A DNA stretch of 44,068 bases from Actinomycetota bacterium (lineage in GTDB: Bacteria; Actinomycetota; Actinomycetes; Nanopelagicales; Nanopelagicaceae), in assembly GCA_947449535.1 (NCBI GenBank), contig CANFRP010000010.1, forward strand, positions 1 through 44,068, read 5' to 3'. How positions within the stretch are numbered: the first letter of the stretch is position 1; each line of letters starts with the position of its first letter. The notes beneath the pieces were generated by a model. That model was not told the origin of the DNA, did not search any database, and worked only from the letters and a program-made list of their open reading frames with translations. The position numbers and the translations under genes were made by a program. This document shows positions 41,003 to 44,068 of this stretch, piece by piece.

Positions 41003-41428
41003 CTACTTAACAATCCCTGCTGCAACTAGCGCTGAGTCATATGCAGCGTGGGCTGCCTTTTGAACAGCAGTGTTAATTGTTCGAGCTTGCGTGACTGTAT
41101 TTTTAAAGAGAAGATTTGCTGCAGCAAGAGCTGCCTTCTTCTTTTTCGCATCGGTCAAGGCATTAGCTGCTGTTGTACCTGCGATACGCGCTGTGGTTGC
41201 GTTTTCGATCGCGGTAGCAAGATTGTTCTTACCCAATGCGATTGCGCGTAATTCGGCGGTTATTGCATTGGATCTGGCCAAGCGCTGTGCCTGAAGTGTT
41301 GCCTTTTGGGCTGGAGTTAGTTTGGTTGTGACATTAGTAGTGTCGGCTGCATAGGCACCAGTTGAAACAACTGAAAGTGCAAGTGCTGTACCAATGGCTA
41401 TTGATGAATAAATTCTTGTTACCTTCAT
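41003..41428 (-). CDS. Secreted Ala/Thr/Lys-rich helical protein of unknown function
   Basis: A 141-residue protein. The signal peptide ends at TGAYA (about residue 27). The mature part has almost no aromatic residues, is rich in Ala, Thr, Lys and Leu (LTPAQKATLQAQRLARSNAITAELRAIA; ANLLFKNTVTQARTINTAVQKAAHAAY) and should be largely helical, possibly coiled-coil. No cysteine in the mature part. SD AGGGAG lies about 5 nt before the ATG. No family recognised. A 7-bp inverted repeat and a leader hairpin lie upstream. Confidence 0.72.
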   Translation of the reverse strand: MKVTRIYSSIAIGTALALSVVSTGAYAADTTNVTTKLTPAQKATLQAQRLARSNAITAELRAIALGKNNLATAIENATTARIAGTTAANALTDAKKKKAALAAANLLFKNTVTQARTINTAVQKAAHAAYDSALVAAGIVK

Positions 41429-41523: not shown

Positions 41524-42942
41524 TTAATTGTCGCGCTGGAAAGAATTCTCACCTGAGTAATTAGATGCAGGTGCGAGATCGCTGAAACGAGCAAAGTGCA
41601 ATTGGGCAGAGACAGCGATGGTTCGTGTTGGGCCGTTACGGTGCTTGGCAATTATGAGATCTGCTTCGCCAGAACGCCCACCACCGTCATACATATCATC
41701 GCGGTGAAGAAGGATTACAACGTCGGCATCCTGCTCAATAGAACCAGATTCACGGAGGTCAGAGAGCATTGGGCGCTTATCTGCGCGCTGCTCGGGACCA
41801 CGGTTGAGCTGTGAAATTGCAATAACAGGAACTTCGAGTTCTTTTGCAAGCAACTTTAAGTTACGTGAAAATTCCGAGACTTCTTGCTGACGATTCTCTA
41901 CGCGCTTACCTGCAGTCATGAGCTGGAGGTAATCGATAATGATTAGCTTGAGATTGTGACGCTGCTTAAGGCGTCGAGCCTTTGCTCGAATCTCCATAAG
42001 AGACATATTGGGTGAATCATCAATAAATAGTGGTGCTGCGGAGATCTCGCCCATTCGCTTGGCAAGACGCCCCCACTCTTCATCCGACAAAGAACCGGAT
42101 CGAATGTTATTAAGAGGTACTCGCGCTTCTGCTGAGAGCATACGCATTGTGATTTCTGAGCGAGACATTTCTAGGGAGAAGATGACGCAGGCATCGCCTT
42201 CGTGAATTGATGCATAACGTGCAATATCGAGACCTAGTGTTGACTTACCAACTGCAGGACGCGCAGCGAGAACAATCATGTTGCCGGGATGGAATCCATT
42301 TGTTAAACCATCGAGATCTTTGAATCCGGACTTAACGCCTTCACTACCAACGCCCTTAGAGATACTTTCGATCTCATCAAGTGCTGCTGGCAGAAGCTCT
42401 GAGAGCTGAATGTAATCTTCGGTGGCGCGTCGCTCGGTGACCTGATAAACCTCTGCTTGCGCAGCATCTACCGCTTCATCAACTTCGCCTTCTTGCGAAT
42501 AACCGATCTGAACAATCTTTGTTCCGGCCTCAACCAATCGACGCATGATTGCGTGATCGCGAACAATGCGTGCGTAGTAGCCAGCATTCGCGGCGGTCGG
42601 TACAGATGAAATTAAAGTATGGAGATATGGCGCGCCACCTGCACGCGCGATATCACCACGTTTTGTTAGTTCGGCTACGACGGTAACTGGATCGGCAGGT
42701 TCGCCGCGGCCATAGAGATCAATAATTGCATCGTAAATAAGTTCGTGCGCAGGACGATAGAAATCGCGTTCACGAATAACTTCGACCACATCTGCGATCG
42801 CATCTTTGCTTAATAACATTCCGCCAAGCACGCCTTGTTCTGCAGCGAGATCTTGTGGTGGTGTTCGTTCGAACTCAGCTCCAGCCGATGAACTCGAGCG
42901 GAAATTTTCTGCCCCGCGGCTTGGAAGTTCGGAGATGCTCAT
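41524..42942 (-). CDS. dnaB: Replicative DNA helicase DnaB
   Basis: A 472-residue helicase. The N-terminal domain (about 25-130) has PPQDLAAEQGVLGGMLLS. The RecA-like domain has Walker A AARPAVGKSTLG, Walker B LIIIDYLQLMT and SQLNRGPEQRADKRP. The ATG at 42942 (MSISELPSRG) is chosen because GGAG lies 9 nt upstream and the length fits the family; 52 more codons are open upstream but run through the repeat-rich region. No intein is present. DnaB unwinds DNA at the fork. Confidence 0.95.
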   Translation of the reverse strand: MSISELPSRGAENFRSSSSAGAEFERTPPQDLAAEQGVLGGMLLSKDAIADVVEVIRERDFYRPAHELIYDAIIDLYGRGEPADPVTVVAELTKRGDIARAGGAPYLHTLISSVPTAANAGYYARIVRDHAIMRRLVEAGTKIVQIGYSQEGEVDEAVDAAQAEVYQVTERRATEDYIQLSELLPAALDEIESISKGVGSEGVKSGFKDLDGLTNGFHPGNMIVLAARPAVGKSTLGLDIARYASIHEGDACVIFSLEMSRSEITMRMLSAEARVPLNNIRSGSLSDEEWGRLAKRMGEISAAPLFIDDSPNMSLMEIRAKARRLKQRHNLKLIIIDYLQLMTAGKRVENRQQEVSEFSRNLKLLAKELEVPVIAISQLNRGPEQRADKRPMLSDLRESGSIEQDADVVILLHRDDMYDGGGRSGEADLIIAKHRNGPTRTIAVSAQLHFARFSDLAPASNYSGENSFQRDN

Positions 42943-43027
42943 GGAGGTATTCTCCAAGTGAGCACTGACATTCCCTATTAAGCGGGAGAGCGCCTGTGTA
43001 TGTGCCTGTGGGGAAGGTGTGAAATGC

Positions 43028-43099
43028 GGTGGAGAAGGTGTGTATAAAGGGTGGATAACTCCCCCAGGAAGGTGGATTCCACGCTCATTCACGCTCATT
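43028..43099. repeat. Repeat-rich region upstream of dnaB
   Basis: GGTGGA occurs at 43028, 43050 and 43071, spacings of 22 and 21 bp (about two helical turns); the middle copy is part of GGTGGATAA, one mismatch from a DnaA box. A perfect tandem 10-bp repeat, CACGCTCATT, follows at 43080-43089 and 43090-43099. The 246-bp gap 42943-43188 contains no other gene I can support; it must hold the dnaB promoter and the divergent promoter of the secreted protein gene. Confidence 0.55.
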
Positions 43100-43188
43100 G
43101 CCCTGTGGGTAAAAGTAATTTGGGGAGTCTCACAATATAAGAATCTCTCAAATGCATAAATCGTCTGCGCATTTACGGTGTAACAATC

Positions 43189-43890
43189 ATGAAACGGATA
43201 ATTTCTCTAGCACTCATCATCATTGGGCCACTCATTTCGACCCCAACGGCCTCAGCAGCAAATCTCCCATTTACCGGTGCTGTCACTAAGGGGGAATGCC
43301 AAGTTGCAGCGTTTATGGTCCCACTTGCGACCGATATCAAAAATATTTCACAGCTAGCACTCTCAATAATTTCACGAGTTCCTGGTGCGGGAAAAGTCGC
43401 TACTTTGGGAAATCTCGCAATTACTGGTGCGGGAAATATTGGTGAGGCAATAAATGGCTACCCGATGAAGAAGGACGACCCAACCGAAGTAAGCGCATTT
43501 AATAAGTTGCGCGACGGAATTATTGGAATGAATGCCGCAAAAGATACTGCCGTGGAAATCACTTCTATTCTTACGGAGCCAATGACCGCCGTTAAGTCTT
43601 GGGATAAGGCTGGAACTTATGAAGTTGCCATTGACCCTAGTGCTCTTTCTAAAGATCAAGTAAGCAAAATATTTCAAAACAAAATTCGCCCTGGGGCTAC
43701 TAACTTTAAATTAAAGGCTGTTCAATTTGTAAAAGTTGAAAAGATTGGTGGAGTACTAACTCTCACAAAAACTTTTACTGCAATTGGAGTTGTAGGAGAT
43801 GTCCTCAGCTTAAAAGAAACTGGTAGCAAAATAATTGGCACTCCAAAGGACATTAGCTCGGGGTTGAATCTCTGTAGCATGATGAAGTAG
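43189..43890 (+). CDS. Secreted protein of unknown function between dnaB and rplI
   Basis: A 233-residue protein with a signal peptide ending at TASA (about residue 23). The mature part has two cysteines, C37 and C229, near its two ends, which could form one disulfide. Hydrophobic glycine-rich helices (SRVPGAGKVATLGNLAITGAG and TFTAIGVVGDVLSL) flank a more polar middle (about 75-165); these helices resemble amphipathic or membrane-inserting segments. I do not recognise a family. It runs opposite to dnaB and convergent to rplI and shares the strong terminator at 43902-43933 with rplI. Confidence 0.75.
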   Translation: MKRIISLALIIIGPLISTPTASAANLPFTGAVTKGECQVAAFMVPLATDIKNISQLALSIISRVPGAGKVATLGNLAITGAGNIGEAINGYPMKKDDPTEVSAFNKLRDGIIGMNAAKDTAVEITSILTEPMTAVKSWDKAGTYEVAIDPSALSKDQVSKIFQNKIRPGATNFKLKAVQFVKVEKIGGVLTLTKTFTAIGVVGDVLSLKETGSKIIGTPKDISSGLNLCSMMK

Positions 43891-43901
43891 TAGTCCAAGC
43901 A

Positions 43902-43933
43902 AAAAGCCCCGCTAATCACTTAGCGGGGCTTTT
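43902..43933. terminator. Bidirectional intrinsic terminator
   Basis: A perfect 14-bp inverted repeat, AAAAGCCCCGCTAA with TTAGCGGGGCTTTT around a TCAC loop, flanked by A-rich and T-rich runs. It ends the plus-strand secreted-protein gene (11 bp after its stop) and the minus-strand rplI transcript. Confidence 0.93.
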
Positions 43934-43946
43934 AAATTATTACTTA

Positions 43947-44068
43947 TTAAGCAGCAACAACATTAATGCTGATGTTTGCAACTACGCCGGCATGAACTGA
44001 AACCTTTGCAGAGTGCTTTCCAACAACCTTGATGTGGCCAACAACTTTGATGCCGTGGCGATCGATAT
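43947..44068 (-). CDS. rplI: Ribosomal protein L9, C-terminal end (cut by window edge)
   Basis: Hand translation gives a C-terminal fragment with IDRHGIKVVGHIKVVGKH followed by SAKVSVHAGVVANISINVVAA and a TAA stop. It matches the C-terminal domain of L9 (xIKxxGxHxVxVxLHxxV pattern). About 40 codons are in the window; the rest lies beyond the edge. L9 next to dnaB is a widespread arrangement, but here the two genes are separated by a gene on the opposite strand. Confidence 0.9.
   Translation of the reverse strand, partial: IDRHGIKVVGHIKVVGKHSAKVSVHAGVVANISINVVAA

Follow-up and report, generated by a model that had tools for sequence, protein, structure and literature searches.

What is the gene that separates rplI from dnaB in this genome, and what allows it to lie there? 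In the window, by which we mean the whole 44,068-nt stretch of DNA analysed here, an ORF runs on the strand opposite to both neighbours, as an earlier note on this DNA had described (Table 1). We think it probable, on balance, that this ORF is a genuine single gene restricted to its lineage, which was gained or born in the rplI-dnaB gap and codes for an exported factor that works by itself at the envelope or surface.

Table 1. Coordinates of the orphan ORF, its parts and its surroundings in the window.
Feature	Position	Strand	Basis	Remarks
dnaB	41524..43098	-	Pfam-confirmed	longest ORF; start at 42942 equally possible
dnaB-side block, probable dnaB promoter region	43101..43145		by eye and by pattern	TGTGGG...TCTCA.TAT, kept in relatives
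Extra DNA compared with short-interval genomes	43146..43901		interval comparison	~756 bp, limits approximate
Orphan ORF, predicted exported protein	43189..43890	+		233 aa, stop codon included; no family
Predicted Sec signal peptide	43189..43257	+	K-R, then hydrophobic stretch and AXA, read by eye	residues 1-23; cleavage after A-S-A
Cys37 codon	43297..43299	+	sequence	near N end of mature protein
Cys229 codon	43873..43875	+	sequence	five residues from C end
Hairpin between ORF and rplI, probable bidirectional terminator	43902..43933		fold energy	absent from the consensus scan listing
rplI, 3' end	43950..44068	-	residue identity with contig C14	39 codons; remainder on contig C14

The ORF is a genuine bacterial gene. 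In a codon model trained on 32 window ORFs that we took as genes, only its own frame is coding, with an in-frame log-odds of 0.265 bit/codon. The remaining five frames of the same stretch are all negative (-0.28 to -1.31 bit/codon). The training ORFs span 0.111-0.413 bit/codon, and six of the 32 score below the orphan ORF in leave-one-out evaluation. When a 765-base stretch of the same dinucleotide make-up was simulated 3000 times with a first-order Markov model, the longest ORF reached 197 codons, as against 233 residues here. These statistics speak against a spurious ORF or an assembly join, which we regard as scarcely credible. Such an artefact might be suspected where the window stops 178 nt past the ORF and where another contig of the same genome, C14, halts precisely at the loop of the hairpin shared by the ORF and rplI. 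Against it, the expected neighbours lie on both sides of the ORF within one contig, and the last 149 bases of C14 are identical to window 43920-44068 in reverse complement. C14 carries the full rplI, and its last 39 residues are those in the window. This identity and the equal rplI ends indicate that the two contigs adjoin. The halt of C14 at the hairpin loop could mean that strains differ at the edge of the insertion, or that the assembly ran into difficulty at the hairpin.

The earlier note recognised no family for the protein, and our searches bear this out: no clear match to a known family appeared in Pfam, NCBIfam, PHROGs, PADLOC or PDB. Pfam, PHROGs and PADLOC returned no family at E values up to 10. 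The sole NCBIfam match was Rex (E 0.056, 13 bits against a cut-off of 126), and PDB sequences gave one match at E 1.4. Thus, nothing in the four family collections passed a curated cut-off or fell below E 0.001. The genome sets that we searched overlap from genus to phylum, and their E-values are per genome. Among the other genomes, 3 of 26 in the genus matched at E up to 1 (best 0.026), 21 of 295 in the family at E up to 0.05 (best 0.0057) and 3 of 393 in the class at E up to 0.01 (best 0.0035), with no convincing homologue at any of these levels; in the phylum, none of 395 matched at E up to 0.001. The family count, 22 of 296 with the genome's own match included, compares with ~15 expected by chance, and the weak matches are in general close to chance in number. 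Two scans each of genome contigs and viral contigs, in which single-protein scans reach close relatives only, found no relative, and the plasmid collection gave no match.

Several weak matches were set aside. Fourteen of the 21 family matches form a group from one genus (g39) that ends at query residue 185. These were taken as chance, and the locus examined from this group, L037, encodes a PmbA/TldD peptidase. A tblastn match to L036 looks better (E 7.6e-5), but the match itself was why the loci compared had been selected. In L003, the match lies antisense to an ORF of 339 aa. Two loci of relatives contain ORFs with a hydrophobic N-terminal stretch, L037 371-1045(-) and L035 741-2051(-). A cysteine-containing motif resembling ITC-KG-KK-T-P-CP-GY recurs in both ORFs, close to the N-terminus of one and at the C-terminus of the other.

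The protein might instead belong to a known exported family from which it has diverged so far that sequence comparison no longer detects the similarity. Small exported proteins change fast, and the best non-self match in the family could be a trace of such kinship, with 26% identity over 87 residues at E 0.0057. It falls in the C-terminal part of an ORF of 436 aa (L035) whose N-terminus has a hydrophobic stretch. However, per-genome E-values over 296 genomes predict 1.7 such matches by chance, and the Pfam, NCBIfam, PHROGs, PADLOC and PDB results are all at noise level. The 436-aa ORF itself has no Pfam match. We therefore treat distant membership as possible but doubtful. The gene resembles instead the class of ORFan genes: it is a single gene of atypical composition without relatives, a real coding sequence by coding statistics and simulation, and it has no convincing homologue outside its species in the genus, family, class, phylum, genome, viral, phage and plasmid sets. 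It is longer than many ORFans and has a clear export signal as read by eye. Nothing else sets it apart from the class.

The N-terminus appears to be of the Sec type. By eye, it reads as the signal peptide MKRIISLALIIIGPLISTPTASA followed by ANLP, with the A-S-A site at residues 21-23, and the most hydrophobic 19-residue stretch of the protein is residues 4-22. This supports the proposal, already in the earlier note, that the protein is exported. The lipobox Cys that a lipoprotein would carry directly behind its signal peptide is absent, as the first Cys, residue 37, lies past the AXA site. According to this reading, cleavage after Ala23 would release a basic product of ~22 kDa; the mature part has a calculated mass of 21.9 kDa, a pI of 9.3 and a Gly content of 9.5%. 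The single Cys pair noted earlier, C37 and C229, does lie in this part and makes up all of its cysteines. The two residues probably form one disulfide that would join both ends of the protein outside the cytoplasm. The earlier note had also read glycine-rich hydrophobic helices in the protein. Single-sequence structure predictions gave a mean pLDDT of 34.6 for the whole and 33.6 for the mature protein, too low to serve as a model of its fold.

The predicted signal peptide is what points to an envelope role: the protein may act in the cell envelope or immediately beyond it, as a lone surface or secreted factor. Judging by this location, phage exclusion and antibacterial action are both possible. 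A secreted antibacterial protein would be exported and might well be basic and carry hydrophobic stretches, as this one does near residues 37-50 and 188-208 in addition to the signal peptide. However, the gene stands alone, and the insert has no second ORF fit for an immunity gene; Pfam matched neither of its two antisense ORFs (101 and 65 aa), and all frames but that of the orphan are non-coding. An antibacterial function is thus very improbable in our estimate.

How unusual is the position of the gene? The earlier note had regarded a gene splitting rplI from dnaB as remarkable, an impression that does not survive comparison with the same family. We located dnaB in 59 of 60 relative genomes, and in the family in at least 223 of 296. 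The interval was then compared in 90 family genomes, namely the 30 best relatives and 60 chosen among the matches listed, favouring positions well inside a contig. It is short (230-468 nt) and without any tested occupant in 59, occupied in 29 and undecided in 2, where contigs end. The orphan-carrying interval (1011 nt) is one of the 29. The other 28 hold a dimethylglycine-dehydrogenase-like gene (15), CorA (11), a peptidase gene alone (1) or an MFS gene (1), the names being those of Pfam matches on one example each. A peptidase-like stretch lies beyond CorA in 2 of the 11 CorA loci. In longer stretches, rplI was found beyond the dimethylglycine-dehydrogenase-like gene in 14 of the 15 loci; in the fifteenth (G029), the order is rplI, that gene, further ORFs, then dnaB. 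With 29 of 90 intervals occupied by such varied genes, the interval is a recurrent open cargo slot in the family (loci L005-L034, L057-L116 and L126-L142), and the orphan's position in it is ordinary.

Two occupants are close to the orphan in arrangement. The CorA-like gene (PF01544) lies in the same slot and, in all 11 genomes, in the same orientation opposite to dnaB. CorA, however, is a transporter family, whereas the orphan is a predicted exported protein without detectable similarity to these loci: tblastn against them gave nothing at E values up to 10, and the CorA profile did not match the orphan. In a genome of the same genus (G007), an MFS transporter gene (PF07690) follows as a single gene just beyond the same dnaB-side block, like the orphan. 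Unlike the orphan, it is on the same strand as dnaB and encodes a membrane transporter of 389 aa.

The borders of the extra DNA can be placed approximately. In 27 intervals compared by eye, the dnaB-side DNA ends in a TGTGGG...ATCTCA.TAT-like block close to the rplI hairpin, and the block pattern is present in 34 of the 90 loci, including 25 of the 30 nearest. The spacing between block and hairpin rests on the rows read by eye; an automatic finder, which required perfect arms within 70 nt, placed a hairpin just after the block in 9 of the 34 loci. With the block ending near 43145 and the hairpin beginning at 43902, about 756 bp is extra in the window. The MFS gene of G007 sits at the same point. 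Searched as DNA against the 296 genomes, the insert matched its own genome only, besides 30-42 nt matches in four genomes, and elsewhere in the window it gave matches of just 14-27 nt. Our analysis turned up no donor for it, no gene of a mobile element and no flanking repeat.

The orphan ORF has a GC content of 42.9% and a GC3 of 36.1%, below all 32 window genes compared (minima 45.2% and 37.5%), which is in line with a recent arrival. Together with its absence elsewhere, this composition suggests that the gene was recently gained by transfer. Alternatively, it may have been born in place. Loss of the gene in all relatives would give the same pattern, yet this scenario needs many losses.

A strong terminator common to the ORF and rplI had also been proposed. 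The shared hairpin is present, 11 nt after the ORF stop, with a 14-pair stem and fold energies of -23.4 kcal/mol (z -6.8) on the + strand and -24.9 kcal/mol (z -5.2) on the - strand. On the other hand, a consensus scan of 42900-44068 returned no terminator and no promoter. By eye, the T run comprises four T on the + strand and five on the - strand, partly inside the stem, and its shortness explains why no terminator was listed. From its fold, the hairpin is probably a bidirectional terminator, and the dnaB-side block is probably the dnaB promoter region.

These elements suggest how the gene could be accommodated. It would have entered, or arisen in, the space that separates the rplI terminator from the dnaB promoter region, and it would be transcribed away from dnaB, toward the rplI hairpin. 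If the hairpin ends transcription from either side, the orphan should disturb neither housekeeping gene. Unrelated genes may persist in the slot for the same reason, because they can be expressed there without disturbing rplI or dnaB. Different species of this one family carry different single genes in the slot, which makes it a place to seek recently gained functions.

A single unit running from promoter to terminator, with low GC, orphan status and an export signal, is also what a phage-derived envelope gene of the moron type would look like, a gene whose product blocks infection at the cell surface. The phage collection gave one weak match that could point in this direction (E 0.2, 31% over 45% of the protein). 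Nevertheless, PHROGs and PADLOC hold no family for the protein, the two viral-contig scans found no relative, and no phage genes were identified beside the orphan. We consider a moron improbable. The orphan might go further than the lone envelope factor that we favour and be the founding member of an undescribed exported family, held by an end-to-end disulfide, carried as interchangeable cargo of the slot and acting at the envelope, for example against phage or grazers. This extension is speculative and, in our view, rather unlikely as a whole.

Our literature search returned nothing on the rplI-dnaB interval in these organisms. Genome sizes and gene content suggest that the source may be a freshwater actinobacterium close to Planktophila and Nanopelagicus. 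One study presents the secreted proteome as generally conserved among freshwater bacteria with small genomes, and the words 'orphan' and 'hypothetical' are absent from its main text (PMC11039613). The orphan protein adds one more to the exported proteins of small-genome bacteria, and the slot is the more useful result. Just past the end of dnaB, the window contains another small exported ORF, alanine-rich and of 141 aa, at 41003-41428(-). It has no family above noise, and its match to a near relative (L006, 54%) is confined to the first 37 residues.
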